This document shows positions 5,762 through 13,730 of a stretch of DNA of 64,000 nt, in pieces (the first letter of the stretch is position 1; each line of letters begins with the position of its first letter). Origin of the DNA: Wenyingzhuangia sp. 2_MG-2023. Its GTDB lineage: Bacteria; Bacteroidota; Bacteroidia; Flavobacteriales; Flavobacteriaceae. The stretch spans positions 250,001 through 314,000 of the forward strand of contig NZ_JAUOSB010000002.1 of the NCBI RefSeq assembly GCF_030548295.1. The letters run 5' to 3'. The translations under genes and the position numbers were made by a program. Below the pieces are notes generated by a model. That model was not told the DNA's origin and did no database searches. It worked only from the letters and a program-made list of their open reading frames with translations.

Positions 5762-6706
5762 TTATTGGCTGTTCTTAATTTGGTTTTTGAAATATTGAAA
5801 CAAAATATACTCTCTACATAGTGACTGGATGTCTTGTTTTTTTTTAAGAACTTGATCTATCTTTTTTTTGATTGAATAGTTTTCCATTTCTATGCAATAT
5901 TTTTCTTCTTTTGATACAATTTCAGCTACTTTATCTGGAGACATTCCTTTTGATAAGAGTAATTTTACTTTTGCATTTCTTTTTAAAAGTTTTAGAGAGT
6001 CTGTGTTGTTTCCTTTTGATTTATATAGTTTTTTAAAAACAGCTTTTTTTACTTTTTCTTTAAAAGCTAAATCATGTTTTGGTAGTTGATTTTTTTTGTA
6101 AAGTTCATAATACAAATACAGCTTGTTGTTTGGCAGCTTGTTGTGTTTTTCAACATACAGATAACACTCAATAATTGCGTTTTGAATAATTTTATTAGTT
6201 TCTTCCTGTGATGGCTTAGAAGCTTCTATTTTTTTTTCAAATAGTTTTTTATTCTTTTTGATGTTGTTGTTTTTCCAATTCTCGAACTTTTTGAATATTT
6301 CAGACACGTAATCCGCATTAAATAGCTGAAAATGCTCTGTTTTATACTCGTACTGCGAATATCTTTCTAAATCAAACGCTTTATTTATCTCGACAAGAGA
6401 TAAGTGCTTAAAACACGTTAAAATCATTTTTATCAAATCTTCCAGTGTTGGAATGTCTATAAGTCCTTTAATCCCTAAAAAATTAGATTGTTTTGTGAGA
6501 ATTGCAGATAAAGCCTCATTAAACAAATCATACTCTATCTCATCAATTCTTTGTTTGGGTACTGATAAAAATTTAACAGGAGCTAAATTGCAAGTTTTAT
6601 TTAAGTGGGTTAGGAATGTTTCTGATGTTTTGTTGGTTAGTTCCAACTTCTGAAATTGATTGACGGTTAACTCTTGGCTCGTTACTGATAGCTTGTTGTT
6701 TTCCAT
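5762..6706 (-). CDS. Phage replication-associated protein, 314 aa
   Basis: The region from about residue 28 (SETFLTHLNKTCNLAPVKFL) to residue 145 (IFKKFENWKNNNIKK) matches a pattern I know from proteins next to DUF1376 genes in Bacteroidota prophages. The rest is lysine-rich and helical. No catalytic motif is seen, so a role as loader or accessory to replication is only inferred from position. The annotated ATG puts 110 bases inside the 3' end of the DUF1376 gene; a later start near residue 25 would reduce but not remove the overlap. Confidence 0.6.
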   Translation of the reverse strand: MENNKLSVTSQELTVNQFQKLELTNKTSETFLTHLNKTCNLAPVKFLSVPKQRIDEIEYDLFNEALSAILTKQSNFLGIKGLIDIPTLEDLIKMILTCFKHLSLVEINKAFDLERYSQYEYKTEHFQLFNADYVSEIFKKFENWKNNNIKKNKKLFEKKIEASKPSQEETNKIIQNAIIECYLYVEKHNKLPNNKLYLYYELYKKNQLPKHDLAFKEKVKKAVFKKLYKSKGNNTDSLKLLKRNAKVKLLLSKGMSPDKVAEIVSKEEKYCIEMENYSIKKKIDQVLKKKQDIQSLCREYILFQYFKNQIKNSQ

Positions 6707-7493
6707 GACTTATTCCTTGTTTTTCTATATTTTCTAAATAAATGGCTTCAAACTTCCCCCAACTTCTTTCAACGCAAGTCTTCAGAATATCATCTTTTTC
6801 TTTGTTTGTTTTTTCAACCTCACTTATGAATTTATTGAAAGCTGTTTTTGTGTTAGATGCTTTTTTGTTTTTTCTAACAATCATCCATTCGTTCGATAAC
6901 TCTTTGTCAAATCCACTCTCGATCAATGAATTTTTAAAATTGAAATTTTTGCTTAAAGAAGAATTAGTATTGTTATTAATACTTTCATTTTCATTTTCAT
7001 TTTCATTTCCTATATGCGTTCGCTTAGCGAACGCTAAAATTTCGTTCCTAAGAAAATTTAATATTTCTTCTTTTCTTTTTTTATCATCTTCTATGTTAAC
7101 AAAGTCAAAAGCGTTGAACTCTTTTTTTATGTGTAAAACTGTTCTTTTACTGAGTTTTTTATTGGCTTTTATCCAATTTCCGTACACCGCTAATATGGAT
7201 TTTAGCGTACCGCTTTGCGAACGCTTAGCGATCTCAGCAGCGCACCTTTTGTTAGCGTAACCGCGCTCGCTTAGCGTGAATTTGTGCTTTATTTCTTCCC
7301 ATATTTCTTTAAATTCTGAGATACCAACACCGCAAAGTCTTGCTAATTTCTTTGTGTCTTTTGGTAAAACTTTTCTTTGATGTTGGTGAAATATAAGTCT
7401 AGTGTAGGCTCCAAACTCTTCTGCAGAAAGATCCGCAGTGCCCTCTAAGAAGTCTTTTGTATAAACTAATAACGCAGGGTCTTGTCCTTCCAT
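6597..7493 (-). CDS. DUF1376 (YdaU-like) replication protein, 298 aa
   Basis: The N-terminus, DPALLVYTKDFLEGTADLS followed by EEFGAYTRLIFHQHQR, LCGVGISEFKEIWEEIK and KFTLSERGYANKR, is the DUF1376 domain found in phage DNA replication initiation proteins with a winged-helix fold. The central part is low complexity (a NENENENES run at about 4-codon repeats near 6985-7010), a likely flexible linker. The C-terminal third (WMIVRKNKKASNTKTAFNKF) resembles the partner-binding end of such proteins. It overlaps the downstream gene by 110 bases. Confidence 0.75.
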   Translation of the reverse strand: MEGQDPALLVYTKDFLEGTADLSAEEFGAYTRLIFHQHQRKVLPKDTKKLARLCGVGISEFKEIWEEIKHKFTLSERGYANKRCAAEIAKRSQSGTLKSILAVYGNWIKANKKLSKRTVLHIKKEFNAFDFVNIEDDKKRKEEILNFLRNEILAFAKRTHIGNENENENESINNNTNSSLSKNFNFKNSLIESGFDKELSNEWMIVRKNKKASNTKTAFNKFISEVEKTNKEKDDILKTCVERSWGKFEAIYLENIEKQGISHGKQQAISNEPRVNRQSISEVGTNQQNIRNIPNPLK

Positions 7494-7524: not shown

Positions 7525-7881
7525 TTAAAACGGTAAATCGTCTGGTTCTTCGTTTTGGGCTACAGAAGTGTTTTGAGCCGTTGCTTTTCTATCAATAGCT
7601 GACAGAGGTGTTGTTTCTATTCTCCAACCTGTAATAGAGTTGAAGTATTTAGCAATTCCTTCTGGATTAATCCATTCTCGACCTCGTAAATTGATAGATA
7701 TAGTTACCTCTTGGCCTAGTTTGTAATTATCTAAGATATCGCATTTGTCTTGTACGAACTCGATTAAGAGCATTTGAGGGTATTGATCATCAGTAGTCAA
7801 TACTAATTCTCTTTTTCTGAATCCGCTTACTCCAAACGTCTGTGTGTCGCTTATGAGTTTTATTGTTCCTGTTACTTGCAT
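7525..7881 (-). CDS. DUF3127 protein with SSB-like acidic tail, 118 aa
   Basis: The core (TGTIKLISDTQTFGVSGFRK, LLIEFVQDKCD, GQEVTISINLRGREW) matches DUF3127, a small beta-barrel family of Bacteroidota thought to have an OB-like fold. The last residues are EEPDDLPF. That acidic hydrophobic tip is the partner-recruiting tail of bacterial single-strand DNA-binding proteins, so this is likely the phage SSB. It lies between the DUF1376 gene and the recombination genes. Single-strand binding is inferred. Confidence 0.8.
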   Translation of the reverse strand: MQVTGTIKLISDTQTFGVSGFRKRELVLTTDDQYPQMLLIEFVQDKCDILDNYKLGQEVTISINLRGREWINPEGIAKYFNSITGWRIETTPLSAIDRKATAQNTSVAQNEEPDDLPF

Positions 7882-8200: not shown

Positions 8201-8668
8201 TTACTCTTTTTTTGTAGGCTCCTCAAAATCTACTTCTTCTATATCTTCATCAAAGAATGGGAATATGTCTATAATTGGGCTTTCTGTAATACTTGGAATT
8301 GAGTAATCAGAAACGGTGTCCTCAAATTGTTCTTGAATCCACTCATAAGCATCTTTAACATCTAAAGCTTGTGCTAAAACAAAAGAGTTCTGTCTTTTTT
8401 CTAGTCCTTTATCTTCGTCTAAAACAACTAAAGAAACTTTTGCTTTAAACCAACGATCTCCGTGTTCGCTTGGGAATATTTCTGAAAAGTTAGCGGGTTT
8501 TATTCTTGTAATTTTAAATCCTTCTGAAAGATATTTCCCCATTTCTTCATTAGCTCTTGCTTCTGCTTCTGTATGCGTTAAGGCATCAAATAAATAAGGC
8601 TGATTGAAGGTTTTAATTTTTTCGTTGTCGTCAATTTTAGAATATTTGACTTTTACTTCGTACCACAT
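8201..8668 (-). CDS. DUF4494 domain protein, 155 aa
   Basis: The order WYEVKVKYSK, QPYLFDALTHTEAEARANEEM, RIKPANFSEIFPSE and DRWFKAKVSLVVLDEDKG is diagnostic of DUF4494, found in Bacteroidota chromosomes and phages. The C-terminus is acidic (FFDEDIEEVDFEEP). The role is unknown; its constant place beside SSB and recombination genes here suggests a link to DNA metabolism. Confidence 0.8.
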   Translation of the reverse strand: MWYEVKVKYSKIDDNEKIKTFNQPYLFDALTHTEAEARANEEMGKYLSEGFKITRIKPANFSEIFPSEHGDRWFKAKVSLVVLDEDKGLEKRQNSFVLAQALDVKDAYEWIQEQFEDTVSDYSIPSITESPIIDIFPFFDEDIEEVDFEEPTKKE

Positions 8669-8823: not shown

Positions 8824-10911
8824 TTACTCTGGTTTAAAGAATGATTGAAATCTGGTTACTGATAGTAGTTCTGGTGACTTAATTAAGCCGTCACCTCTAC
8901 CTTGTAGTAGTTCTGCTCCACCTTCGTCTATAACCACTTTAGAATCTACTTCTTTAGGTACTCTGTAGCATATTTGTACAGGAAAGTTTGCTTTGGCATC
9001 TCCATTAATAACTTTTACGGATGCTCTTTGTGTTGCTGCATGAATTCTAAACCCTAGTGATCTACCTTTTTGTAATAAAACTTGCAAGTTTTCTTCTAGT
9101 GATTTTTTAGTATCAACATGAACTCTTTTGTATTTTGGTTTACCATTTTTATACTCGCCTACTATTTGATTTTCGTAAACTTTTAAAGCGTTTCCTTTTT
9201 TGGAATTAGCAACTGCATCGGCAAACTCGTCAAAAATGATAACCTTAAATTTCTTATATCCGCTTTGAGTTCTTTCTTTCATTTCATCAACCAACAATTC
9301 CATCATTGCTTCAATATCTTCTATGTCTTCTATTACTTCTATTCCTGGAGTGTTCTTGTATTTAGAAAATTCGTTTTTAGGATCAAGAATAACAATGTCT
9401 TTGATTCCTGCTAACAACATATATTCTATTTGTGAAAATATACCTGCTGATTTACCAGAACCAGTGGCTCCACAAGTAATTACATGAGGTGTTGAATGAT
9501 TTTTTAAATCCCAAAAGATTAAGTTTCCTAAATTATCTAGTCCTATAGGTATTTTGTATTCCGATAGGTATTTAGGATCCCAAAACAGGTCTGCATTTCT
9601 TTTTTTAGGTACTTCTATACTTACAAAAGATTCATTCTCGTGTACTACTAAATCTGATTGAATTCTAACATTTGAAACATCTAAAGCGTTGGCGATGTCT
9701 AATTTGTATTTTTTAACACTTGCTATGTTAGTACCCATAGAAGTTCTTAGTAAGAAGGTGTCATAAGCATATCCTTCTATTTTATGAGCTGTTTCTACTA
9801 AGGTGTTGAATGTTTTTAATAGGTATTCAATTTTTGCTTCTTTAGTCATGTTTTTGTCTTTTAAATCAAATCGTATAAAGTTGTTTGCTTGATCTCTGAA
9901 TTTTTTAATTACTGTAGGAGATACATTGGTAATAGAAGAGTCTCTAATTTTTTTAAGTCTTTTCCCTATTACCTCTTTTTTATCGTCTGGAATTTCAATA
10001 AAATCATCAACTTCAGCTATCATGGTTTTAGCCCAAAAAGCATGTAGTTCAGCTTTGTCTACATAGTTATCGTCTTCATTCATTAAATACACGTAGTCTG
10101 GATCTTGAACCGCTTGTATCATTCTTCTTAATGGCTCGTACAATAATGCTTCAAATAACTTGATGTTGTTTTTATCTAATGGTATTTTAAAACACACTAA
10201 TTGAGGTCCTCCACCTCTGTTTTTAGATGCTTTATTTTCAACAAACCAAACTTCATCAGCCTTAATGCCAAATACTTCAAATAGTAAATTGTAGTAAGTA
10301 ACTGCTTGTTTACCAACCGACAAAGCAATTTCGTCTTCGTTGGAATATTTGCTTTTAGATTTATGATCTACAATAACAATCTTTCCGTCACTTGTTTTTA
10401 ATACTAAATCTATAATTCCAGAAAAAGGAATAGGGATATCAACTCCGTTGATAATTAAGAATTCCTTCAAGTAGGTTTCTACGTATAGAATTTCCACAAA
10501 GTCATAAATAGATACTTCTTTAATAAAGTATGATAAAAGAGCATTTACATCTTTGGTTGCTTTTTCTATACATTTATCTATCGTTGGGGTGGTTGCTTGT
10601 AATTTCCAATCGTTAGCGGGTACAGATTCTATGAAATTGTAAGCTGTTGTTTGTAAGTCAACAATATCTGTATCTATGTTTAATTTTTTTTCATCAAAAT
10701 AAAACTTCAATGCTTCGTGATAGGCTTTACCTGCTATGTTTGAAGCGGAACTTTTAAAAGGCATACGATATATGTATGTCATTTCAAAAGCTTTTTCGTT
10801 TCTAGCGAATGCGGTTACTTTTGAATAGCTACAGCTATCTATCAGAAAATTACTAAAGTGATTTTCTGATTGCTCTGGAGTTAGATTTCTAAATTGATTC
10901 TGTCTACTCAT
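8824..10911 (-). CDS. PD-(D/E)XK nuclease fused to FtsK/SpoIIIE-type ATPase, 695 aa
   Basis: Residues about 25-260 form a RecB/AddB-like PD-(D/E)XK nuclease: SYSKVTAFARNEKAFEM, GKAYHEALKFY, and the active core GIIDLV at about 165 followed by IVIVDHKSKSKYS at about 180, giving Asp, Asp and Lys. Residues 400-690 form an FtsK-type motor: Walker A GATGSGKSAG near 480, IVILDPKNEF, Walker B KVIIFDEFAD near 558, and a sensor region LQKGRSLGFRIHAATQRAS. The RecT gene ends two bases upstream, so nuclease, motor and annealase are co-transcribed. There is no membrane domain and no FtsK gamma domain. Confidence 0.85.
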   Translation of the reverse strand: MSRQNQFRNLTPEQSENHFSNFLIDSCSYSKVTAFARNEKAFEMTYIYRMPFKSSASNIAGKAYHEALKFYFDEKKLNIDTDIVDLQTTAYNFIESVPANDWKLQATTPTIDKCIEKATKDVNALLSYFIKEVSIYDFVEILYVETYLKEFLIINGVDIPIPFSGIIDLVLKTSDGKIVIVDHKSKSKYSNEDEIALSVGKQAVTYYNLLFEVFGIKADEVWFVENKASKNRGGGPQLVCFKIPLDKNNIKLFEALLYEPLRRMIQAVQDPDYVYLMNEDDNYVDKAELHAFWAKTMIAEVDDFIEIPDDKKEVIGKRLKKIRDSSITNVSPTVIKKFRDQANNFIRFDLKDKNMTKEAKIEYLLKTFNTLVETAHKIEGYAYDTFLLRTSMGTNIASVKKYKLDIANALDVSNVRIQSDLVVHENESFVSIEVPKKRNADLFWDPKYLSEYKIPIGLDNLGNLIFWDLKNHSTPHVITCGATGSGKSAGIFSQIEYMLLAGIKDIVILDPKNEFSKYKNTPGIEVIEDIEDIEAMMELLVDEMKERTQSGYKKFKVIIFDEFADAVANSKKGNALKVYENQIVGEYKNGKPKYKRVHVDTKKSLEENLQVLLQKGRSLGFRIHAATQRASVKVINGDAKANFPVQICYRVPKEVDSKVVIDEGGAELLQGRGDGLIKSPELLSVTRFQSFFKPE

Positions 10912-10913
10912 AA

Positions 10914-11612
10914 TTACGGCATTTCTGTTACTTCTATAGTTTTCTTATCTCTTAAATCATCCTTTTTCTGCTGCCCTGTATCTACGTTGGATGTTGACTC
11001 TTGGTTTACAGGAACTGCTATACCGCTAGAGGTATTGAAGTCATATTCAGAATGTAGATTACTCATACCAAACGCTTTTTTTAACGCATGTGATTCAGCT
11101 ACTTTTTTAATCATATCCGCATCATGACTTTTCCAAACGAAAGAACCTTTGTTGTAAGTAGCGAAATCAGCCCATTCAATTGTTGGTTCACCGTCTTTTC
11201 TAAAAGCAATAGCATAAGCTCCTATTATAGCTCCTCTTTTAGATCTTGATTCGGTAATGTTGTGAGTTATCTTGTTGTTGGCGACATCTAGGTTAAAAAC
11301 ATCTTTCTCACAAACCTCAGAACTTCTAATACCATTATACTGTGGTGACCTTTGGGCTTTGGTTAAAAACCCGTCACGTCCAGTTATTATAATAATGTTG
11401 TTTTTATTGTCTTTGTAGCACCAAATTTCCTTATTAAATGGATTAAGGTCTACAGATTTACATACGCTTAGGAAATAACCCAGTTCTACTCCATTAGTTC
11501 CTTTAGCGACTGTGTTTTGAATTACTGCAACTTCCTCAATAGAGTATTTAAAAGCTTTTGCAATATCTACCTGTCTTTCGGTAGCTATAATCATGTTTTT
11601 GTTATTACTCAT
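10914..11612 (-). CDS. bet: RecT/Bet-type ssDNA annealing protein
   Basis: The region GYFLSVCKSVDLNPFNKEIW, then IIIITGRDGFLTKAQRSPQY, GAIIGAYAIAFRKDG and KKVAESHALKKAFGMSN, is the conserved core of the RecT/Redbeta annealase family (phage recombination protein Bet). At 232 residues it is within the family range. The C-terminal 35 residues are polar and probably disordered. It pairs with the fused nuclease downstream, as exonuclease and annealase do in phage synaptase systems. Its 3' side overlaps the start of nothing; its 5' end overlaps the 66-residue gene by 8 bases. Confidence 0.9.
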   Translation of the reverse strand: MSNNKNMIIATERQVDIAKAFKYSIEEVAVIQNTVAKGTNGVELGYFLSVCKSVDLNPFNKEIWCYKDNKNNIIIITGRDGFLTKAQRSPQYNGIRSSEVCEKDVFNLDVANNKITHNITESRSKRGAIIGAYAIAFRKDGEPTIEWADFATYNKGSFVWKSHDADMIKKVAESHALKKAFGMSNLHSEYDFNTSSGIAVPVNQESTSNVDTGQQKKDDLRDKKTIEVTEMP

Positions 11613-11805
11613 TTTTACAATAGGTTTTAATGTTTGCTAATTGCTTGGTATGCTTTGCTGTTTCTTTAGTAGTGAACCAAAAAGTCTTATTTTCAGAATC
11701 AATAAAAATCTCATTACAAAGTCTATATTCTGTAGTAGGGTTTAATTCTGTATACCCTTTAGCTACTAGTCCAATAGCTTTCTTGTTTAGTTTATTCGTC
11801 ATCAC
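11605..11805 (-). CDS. Hypothetical small phage protein, 66 aa
   Basis: No domain recognised. The middle (EYRLCNEIFIDSENKTFWFT) is a likely beta hairpin and the ends are basic helices. The frame overlaps the start of the Bet gene and the end of the HTH gene by a few bases, consistent with a translationally coupled early operon. Confidence 0.5.
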   Translation of the reverse strand: MMTNKLNKKAIGLVAKGYTELNPTTEYRLCNEIFIDSENKTFWFTTKETAKHTKQLANIKTYCKNE

Positions 11806-12100
11806 CGTTTATAAAATTTAAAATTTCACTTCCTTTAATTAACCAAGATCTACCGTTTCTAGTACCAATCAACACGTTGTCTAAAACATACTTAGATATA
11901 GTTCTTTGGCTTTTATCTAAAAGGCACGAAGCTTCTTGAGTATTATAAAATGTATTAGGCTTTATAGAGTCTATAGAAATATCTGTATCTCTATTTATTT
12001 TAAGTCTAGTTCTTACAGGTTTTGAGTCTTCTGTAAGCTCAATTATCTTCTGTGCAACCTTTTCTGCAAAATCATCTGGTAGTTTTATTGTTATATCCAT
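11792..12100 (-). CDS. Excisionase/MerR-like HTH protein, 102 aa
   Basis: The C-terminal half (FYNTQEASCLLDKSQRTISK, then LIGTRNGRSWLIKGSEILNF) is an HTH_17-type winged helix as in phage excisionases and small DNA-binding regulators. The N-terminal half is a charged segment starting MDITIKLPDDFAEKV. It lies near the repressor switch, so a role in excision or early control is plausible but not shown. Confidence 0.65.
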   Translation of the reverse strand: MDITIKLPDDFAEKVAQKIIELTEDSKPVRTRLKINRDTDISIDSIKPNTFYNTQEASCLLDKSQRTISKYVLDNVLIGTRNGRSWLIKGSEILNFINGDDE

Positions 12101-12886: not shown

Positions 12887-13273
12887 ATGGATTTTACTAA
12901 TATTGGAATAAAGAAAATACGGTTAAAGACCAAGTTGACACAAGGAGAGTTTGCTGAGTCAATAAATGTTTCCGTGCCTAGTGTTCAAAAATGGGAATCT
13001 GGGGATAGATTCCCTAATAGAAGCACCGCGAAAAAAATAAAAGAAGTATATAGTGATGTTATTAGTCAAATAGAAAAAGAAAGCATACAGTCTCCTGGTG
13101 TTTTGGATGCTAAAGCAGAGGAGAGTTTGAAAGAGATAAAAGAAGCTTTGTCTAATATTCCAGACAATCTAGTTTTGGGATATATAATGGATAATTACGA
13201 AAGGTTTAAGGGTAATATGTCGTTTAGAATGTTAACAGAGTATCATTCTAATCAAATGAAGTCAGAAGATTAA
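12887..13273 (+). CDS. Cro/C1-type HTH repressor, 128 aa
   Basis: Residues 5-60 are a classic HTH_3 domain: KIRLKTKLTQGEFAESINVS, then VPSVQKWESGDRFPNRSTAKKI. The rest is a helical extension (LKEIKEALSNIPDNLVLGYI) with no peptidase or LexA-like domain, so control is not by RecA-driven cleavage. It is the only gene of the element on the plus strand, divergent from the early operon, and is probably the lysogeny repressor or a Cro analogue. Confidence 0.85.
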   Translation: MDFTNIGIKKIRLKTKLTQGEFAESINVSVPSVQKWESGDRFPNRSTAKKIKEVYSDVISQIEKESIQSPGVLDAKAEESLKEIKEALSNIPDNLVLGYIMDNYERFKGNMSFRMLTEYHSNQMKSED

Positions 13274-13655: not shown

Positions 13656-13660
13656 GAAGT

Positions 13661-13730
13661 TGTCCCACAAGGACTCGAACCTTGAATGACGGTACCAAAA
13701 ACCGGAGTGTTACCATTACACCATGGGACA
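13661..13730 (-). tRNA. tRNA-Gln (anticodon UUG)
   Basis: On the minus strand the sequence folds as a 70-base cloverleaf: acceptor TGTCCCA/TGGGACA, D-stem GTGT/ACAC, anticodon stem with loop TTTTGGT (anticodon TTG), and T-arm CAAGG-TTCGAGT-CCTTG. CCA is not encoded. The anticodon stem has one mismatch at its base (C-T). Its 3' end faces the prophage-like block, a common integration site geometry. Confidence 0.95.

Follow-up and report, generated by a model that had tools for sequence, protein, structure and literature searches.

The 64,000 nucleotides of Wenyingzhuangia sp. 2_MG-2023 DNA analysed here (contig NZ_JAUOSB010000002.1, positions 250,001 to 314,000 of the forward strand; hereafter the window) carry at their left end part of a prophage with a gene for a 695-amino-acid protein that joins a PD-(D/E)XK nuclease to an FtsK-type motor. 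This fusion is probably the exonuclease half of a phage SynExo pair, provided with its own ring-type motor for double-stranded DNA and served by interchangeable annealases that dock on it by their C-terminal tail. Both of its domains are recognised and their active sites are conserved, it occupies the exonuclease slot, the annealase gene preceding it was replaced many times, and the tail of these annealases has a tight statistical link to the fusion. The fusion, its parts and the adjoining annealase lie as follows.

8824..10911, minus strand: fusion of a PD-(D/E)XK nuclease and an FtsK motor, 695 amino acids (open reading frame, Pfam, AlphaFold2 model, Foldseek)
10273..10833, minus strand: nuclease domain, residues 27-213 (PDDEXK_1, E 1.4e-10; conserved motif residues)
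9862..10272, minus strand: connecting region, residues 214-350, with the DEVWFVENK block (conserved; no Pfam family above the gathering score)
9607..9861, minus strand: FtsK alpha domain, residues 351-435 (PF17854, FtsK_alpha, E 6.7e-7)
8836..9561, minus strand: FtsK beta (RecA-like) motor domain, residues 451-692 (PF01580 at 451-572; phrog_1358 to 692; FtsK structures)
10914..11612, minus strand: RecT-family single-strand annealing protein, 232 amino acids (PF03837, E 8.5e-33; phrog_2780)
10917..10967, minus strand: candidate docking tail of RecT, last 17 residues, KK-x2-L ... E-M-P-COOH (sequence; end common to relatives)

A sequence-only reading of the window had described the protein as a RecB-like nuclease followed by an FtsK ATPase, encoded beside a Bet/RecT gene; Pfam, the AlphaFold2 model and Foldseek confirm the former and PF03837 the latter. 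The Pfam families follow each other in the order PDDEXK_1, FtsK_alpha and FtsK_SpoIIIE (the last with E 1.4e-11), all above the gathering score. The nuclease residues G61xxxH65, D168, D182-H-K184 and Q202xxxY206, which we take to be the set named GxxxH, GxxD-type, D/E-x-K and QxxxY, together with PDDEXK_1 assign the domain to the RecB-type PD-(D/E)XK nucleases, and nuclease activity is predicted. The motor has an alpha domain and a RecA-like beta domain with what are presumably Walker A (481-488) and Walker B (D561-E562) motifs, as well as Q628-R629, and belongs to the FtsK/SpoIIIE superfamily. Loss of these active sites in most homologues, which would have spoken against a working machine, is not found: all 85 aligned sequences keep G61, D168, D182, K184, Q202, G481, G486, K487, E562, Q628 and R629, while H65, Y206, G484 and R617 are kept in 84 and S488 and D561 in 83. 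The protein stops with the beta domain; neither the FtsK gamma domain nor the N-terminal membrane part gives a Pfam match at E 1. Its NCBIfam FtsK score of 79.7 bits, against a cut-off of 1566, separates it from orthologues of the FtsK chromosome translocase. An origin as a copy of the host FtsK was discarded, the other match in the same genome being an 825-amino-acid FtsK-like open reading frame (ORF) with 34% identity over residues 390-681.

The closest relatives of the fusion in a PDB sequence search are FtsK motors (E 6e-24 and 8e-24). The AlphaFold2 model, built from the 85 sequences, has a mean predicted local distance difference test (pLDDT) score of 91.1, and its top Foldseek matches are FtsK motor domains, some of them DNA-bound (6t8o, E 2.6e-22, template modelling (TM) score 0.68 by target), at about 23-26% identity. 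Further matches are the Cas4-family nuclease ACE1 (E 1.3e-7), Dna2, AdnAB, HerA and the HerA-NurA chain 9x1m (E 6.1e-6). The Foldseek output carries no query ranges; ACE1, a nuclease without motor, Dna2 and AdnAB presumably match the N-terminal half. The connecting region between the two domains has invariant residues and is a candidate partner-binding surface.

The domain order of the window protein recurs in a family of 101 distinct fusion ORFs above 300 bits, its own included. The set was obtained by pooling loci L001-L144, excluding L028, L141 and L144 (no profile match at E 1e-5) and nine loci below 300 bits (L030 among them), and merging those with identical last 600 amino acids; near-identical loci such as L012-L015 were retained. 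With the window protein alone as query, viral contigs yielded 28 relatives, 26 of them fusion-like and at 48-59% identity. The fusion is not a chance product, since 24 of these 26 have a single reading frame of nearly full length; of the other two, L026 runs off its contig and L024 is broken into two ORFs. A second viral scan with the alignment gave 80 relatives, five of them weak. Among the 35 matches of a GTDB genome scan, 30 are in records named as Bacteroidota, including the cultured Chitinophaga tropicalis, Flavobacterium fluvii, Dysgonomonas sp. 511, Chryseobacterium aquifrigidense, Flavihumibacter petaseus and Paraflavitalea pollutisoli, a majority counted only over records with a named source, as the viral contigs come without host names. 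The other five are metagenome-assembled genomes named Sedimentibacter, Ruminococcus and Gracilibacteria, a Puniceicoccaceae bacterium, and Lentzea terrae (motor part only). At E 1e-60, a search of 395 genomes of the window's phylum gave a match in the window's own genome only. INPHARED has 156 matching records among 50,697 phages, none over 80% of the query, and the 40 matches listed cover the motor half; no isolated phage is thus usable as a reference.

The gene that precedes the fusion codes an annealase or a candidate annealase in all 99 assessable loci, directly upstream or behind an inserted gene (L055 and L114 start too close to a contig end to show the upstream gene). With their last 40 residues removed, the upstream proteins cluster into ten families, which were named from scans of representative members. 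Fifty-six are of known types: 33 RecT (15 phrog_148, 16 phrog_561 and two of the window's type), 14 Sak4-like ATPases (AAA_24 and phrog_1366; phrog_124 Sak4 at E 1.6e-6), five ERF and four Rad52. The remaining 43 belong to four unrecognised families, namely phrog_3657 (30), an unnamed family (9), phrog_15333 (3) and the neighbour in L092 (1). The question posed with the sequence-only reading, whether RecT is always adjacent, thus has a mixed answer: not for RecT itself, but in every assessable locus for annealases taken together, candidates included. The two genes usually overlap by 4 nucleotides. In L085 and L105 other genes are inserted between them, and a phrog_561 RecT and a phrog_3657 protein, respectively, lie behind the insertions; the gene inserted in L085 is presumably HNH-like. 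A tree was built from 96 fusions of 640 to 730 amino acids, and all but L114 were labelled with their neighbour family (95 labels). It requires at least 34 changes of this family, where shuffled labels require 58.8 on average. The annealase is often exchanged and its slot is never empty in these loci.

A profile comparison of the annealase families gives two links and no others: the window's RecT type matches RecT phrog_148, and the unnamed family matches phrog_3657 over 47 columns, perhaps near the tail. A member of phrog_3657, from L013, has no Pfam family above the gathering score and no NCBIfam family. The occurrence of phrog_3657 (in L020, L013 and L053, for instance) in the slot of 30 of the 99 loci, and near a stand-alone exonuclease in 48 of 61 others, suggests that it is probably an unrecognised annealase family. 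Three more neighbour families that bear no annealase name have the same kind of end and are candidates for new annealases: the upstream genes of L002, L091 and L126, the ORF L092:6183-7001, and those of L083, L087 and L112.

The place taken by the fusion becomes apparent when the same annealases occur elsewhere. Four annealase families were scanned separately, with 80 loci each (the best of more for some) and 4 kb fetched per locus, and an annealase was called unlinked when these 4 kb contain no fusion. A member of a stand-alone exonuclease cluster lies within four genes of 154 of the 279 unlinked annealases (74/78 for RecT phrog_148, 48/61 for phrog_3657, 27/65 for the Sak4-like family and 5/75 for RecT phrog_561) and of none of the 37 fusion-linked ones. 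Because the fusion itself takes half of the 4 kb, the search was repeated on the 101 fusion loci, with a median of 6.9 kb downstream and at least 3 kb in 74: none has an ORF of the cluster. Pfam assigns YqaJ to four of six cluster members and no family to two. By PHROGs, six of seven are best matched by exonuclease families (phrog_5715, phrog_149); the seventh, L316, matches best phrog_4763, of unknown function, then phrog_149 at 1.4e-6. L289, scanned likewise, has no family and L391 is a metal-dependent hydrolase. The fusion thus holds the exonuclease's place in a known two-gene arrangement, which agrees with the earlier suggestion of a two-component recombination system.

Alternatively, the fusion might mainly pump or cut DNA for some other purpose of the phage, such as segregation, genome entry or attack on host DNA or plasmids, and merely sit within a recombination cluster. 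The PHROGs class of the relatives of the FtsK half, phrog_1358 and phrog_3551, is 'moron, auxiliary metabolic gene and host takeover', and this half also resembles the defence-system ATPases mad8 and SspH, which would suit such a role. The constant annealase or candidate before the fusion, and the lack in every fusion locus of the stand-alone exonuclease that is frequent beside the same annealases elsewhere, make this improbable. Assignment of the fusion itself to a defence system was rejected, all four PADLOC matches being confined to the motor half.

The annealases linked to the fusion, although of many families, end alike. Position -2 is Leu or Met in 97 of the 99, and 77 finish with Leu/Met-Pro-COOH. 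When the two loci with insertions are set aside, the counts are 95/97 for Leu/Met at -2, 75/97 for a last Pro and 48/97 for Glu/Asp at -3. Lys is the commonest residue from -10 to -16, often as KKxxLK. The comparison with unlinked relatives used 316 annealase ORFs, of which 249 remained after redundancy was removed at 90% identity. ORFs lacking a stop codon had been passed over, and unlinked ones with less than 600 nucleotides downstream were excluded, which left 35 linked proteins, partly from the same phages as the 101-locus set, and 207 unlinked ones. The [LM]P end is found in 29 of the 35 linked and in none of the 207 unlinked non-redundant members (2/2 versus 0/58 for RecT phrog_148, 12/16 versus 0/45 for phrog_3657, 13/15 versus 0/47 for Sak4-like, 2/2 versus 0/57 for RecT phrog_561). 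In the window's own RecT family the close relative beside a fusion, L472, which lies on the contig of L066, has the end DLP, while [LM]P is in none of 26 unlinked members, a number that may include redundant sequences and excludes L495 (a fragment) and L496 (no stop codon).

Could this end be a by-product of a DNA constraint, set by the overlap of stop and start codons or by a signal for translation initiation? Most annealase-fusion pairs do have the 4-nucleotide overlap, which prompts the question, but only one of 89 other genes with an ATGA overlap in the same loci ends in [LM]P. The end is retained at gaps of 1, 2, 3, 29 and 196 nucleotides, its proline is encoded by CCA, CCG, CCC and CCT, and it persists past the inserted genes in L085 (MEMP) and L105 (PQMP). 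The tests do not support this explanation, which is very improbable.

It is also conceivable, though unlikely, that fusion and annealase form a recombination pair and that the tail binds a third protein, such as a host or phage single-strand DNA binding protein (SSB), the replisome or a protease, both genes being in the same phage module. The [DE]-[LM]-P end partly resembles the acidic C-terminal tip of SSB, and the DUF3127 protein of the window, a single-strand-binding-like protein, ends DDLPF. In E. coli, according to the portion consulted of PMC7913777, partners are bound by the last 9 residues of SSB. A shared host factor explains poorly that linked annealases and their nearest unlinked relatives differ in their end though they are 71-83% identical (the 14 closest pairs among those listed). 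Nor does the tail track DUF3127: this family, named by one representative, follows 31 of the 279 annealases without a fusion nearby, and only 6 of the 101 fusion loci have a DUF3127-like ORF within the DNA retrieved. The tail as a signal for a DUF3127 partner was dismissed on these counts.

Counts of sequences exaggerate independence, and independent, supported tree pairs were used for this reason. There are five such pairs in phrog_3657 and three each in the Sak4-like, RecT phrog_148 and RecT phrog_561 families; the mean numbers of pairs in the same and the opposite direction are 2.8 and 0, 1.9 and 0, 2.6 and 0, and 3.0 and 0, respectively. The fusions of L013 and L018 are 98.3% identical over their first 1500 nucleotides and follow unrelated annealases with different tails that both end MP. 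Without the identical last 10 nucleotides, the likeness of the two tail DNAs is no better than that of shuffled sequences (75 of 300 shuffles score as high), and inheritance of the tail as DNA attached to the 5' end of the fusion was rejected for this pair. The end NQSPTLM is common to L037, L068 and L127, whose annealases belong to two families, and the codons of SPTLM are partly different, so both inheritance and convergence may occur. The tail and body identities of these pairs, about 0.7-0.78, are inflated by free end gaps and were left unused.

Several observations weigh against an annealase tail that docks on the fusion. No family is significant alone in the tree-pair tests, though the tail never runs the opposite way. 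Among the 99 linked annealases, 22 have ends other than [LM]P (eight LL, five LM, three LK, two LA, one MA, one ML, L138, which ends DLPS, and L045, which is out of frame near its end), and looser ends of the type [LM][LMAKY] are also present in 15 of the 207 unlinked proteins. L493, from 4785 onward, is a divergent fusion (587 bits) whose RecT lacks the tail end and is separated from it by 142 nucleotides and a small ORF; it may have a different coupling. The unlinked class is defined by the fetched 4 kb rather than by the whole phage. The 43 unrecognised neighbours are candidate annealases by position and tail only; for phrog_3657, the AlphaFold2 model (pLDDT 81.9) has no PDB match at E 0.001, and its weak similarity to ERF among viral models combines an E value of 2.4e-5 with a TM score of 0.24. 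Finally, the docking of the tail on the fusion is predicted from sequence.

In the proposed mechanism, the FtsK alpha/beta part would assemble as a hexamer on a DNA end and its ATP hydrolysis would pump the duplex, from which the N-terminal RecB/Cas4-like nuclease would remove one strand. Through a flexible basic linker with [DE]-[LM]-P-COOH as its end, the annealase encoded upstream would dock on the fusion and be loaded onto the exposed single strand for annealing; the annealase body could be swapped between unrelated families provided that the tail is present. The wider claim is favoured by a small margin over its negation: that linker and end act as a universal key by which one motor-driven nuclease recruits RecT, Rad52, ERF and Sak4/RecA-like annealases, and that slot and tail reveal at least four further annealase families unrecognised by sequence libraries. 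A processive resection machine, as first proposed for the window protein, is plausible by analogy with HerA-NurA.

The nearest system is lambda Red (the cited papers are represented here and below by the parts consulted). The likeness of phage SynExo pairs (lambda Red alpha/beta, RecE/RecT, YqaJ or DUF3799 with RecT) lies in their adjoining exonuclease and annealase genes, also reported for exonuclease and RecT neighbours in Firmicutes phages (PMC8093625). The C-terminal domain of the lambda annealase takes part in exonuclease binding (PMC5052646). The exonuclease partners named in the consulted parts of PMC5052646 and PMC8093625 are without a motor, unlike the fusion, and those parts contain no mention of an [LM]P-COOH end. 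The foreign combinations of RecE and Red-beta and of Red-alpha and RecT failed (PMC5052646), whereas one fusion family occurs with annealases of many families. Unrelated annealases share a C-terminal helix-turn-helix (HTH) domain like that of Red-beta (PMC8093625); it is a folded domain, while the tail linked to the fusion is short and tied to one nuclease family.

HerA-NurA, in which a hexameric translocase of the FtsK/HerA superfamily works with a nuclease at DNA ends (PMC9960219), is the nearest working analogue. It consists of two separate cellular proteins without a phage annealase partner, whereas in the fusion a PDDEXK_1 nuclease is joined to the motor. NurA is not known to be a PD-(D/E)XK nuclease. 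AdnAB, Dna2 and AddAB/RecBCD share with the fusion a RecB-family nuclease joined to an ATP-driven motor; their motors are superfamily 1 helicases and that of the fusion is FtsK-type. With FtsK/SpoIIIE the alpha and beta motor domains are common, but the fusion has the nuclease in place of the membrane and linker part, and Pfam finds no gamma domain. FtsK is mentioned in PMC7824862 and PMC5512222 and this fusion is not, in the parts consulted. An open-access literature search returned no title or abstract start describing the fusion or the annealase tail; such a search misses many papers and preprints, and novelty is unproven.

In the window, the fusion belongs to one run of minus-strand genes that also includes RecT, whose gene stops 2 nucleotides before the fusion start, and the following genes.

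8201..8668, minus strand: DUF4494 protein, between the fusion and DUF3127 (PF14902)
7525..7881, minus strand: DUF3127 single-strand-binding-like protein (PF11325, E 1.1e-28; phrog_4932, PHROG 'single strand DNA binding protein')
6597..7493, minus strand: DUF1376 / primosomal-protein-like gene (PF07120; phrog_6451)

The operon partnership with DUF3127 proposed by the sequence-only reading holds here as a same-strand run; the few fusion loci with such an ORF argue against a fixed part. The window's RecT scores 114 bits for PF03837 (Pfam gathering score 24), which places it in the RecT family, and 70.4 bits for NCBIfam bet_lambda, slightly under the cut-off of 76.95. DUF4494 relatives occur near annealases with and without a fusion, as a cluster of 14, 7 of them linked, whose identity was read from sequence. 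Upstream of RecT are genes for a 66-amino-acid protein (11605-11805) and an HTH_17 protein (11792-12100), relatives of which are upstream of the annealase in L001 and L019. Beyond the left edge, in loci L465-L466, PHROGs identifies a terminase large subunit, portal, virion proteins and an endolysin; one 2172-amino-acid ORF of the same prophage (L466:117-6635) is also found there. The right boundary of the prophage seems to be near a repressor-like gene (12887-13273, plus strand) and a tRNA-Gln gene (13659-13730, minus strand) that may mark the integration site; genes from 13957 on look chromosomal.

The hand-over of a strand from exonuclease to annealase is poorly understood even in lambda Red. 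The fusion family amounts to a repeated experiment of nature in which the nuclease is kept and the annealase exchanged, and the sequence that stays constant points to a contact, so that a short peptide allows a direct test of exonuclease-annealase coupling. In the fusion a motor of the FtsK type, usually a pump for segregation or packaging, is joined to a DNA-end nuclease in one polypeptide, a simpler model for machines of the HerA-NurA type. The slot before the fusion is a route to new phage annealases.

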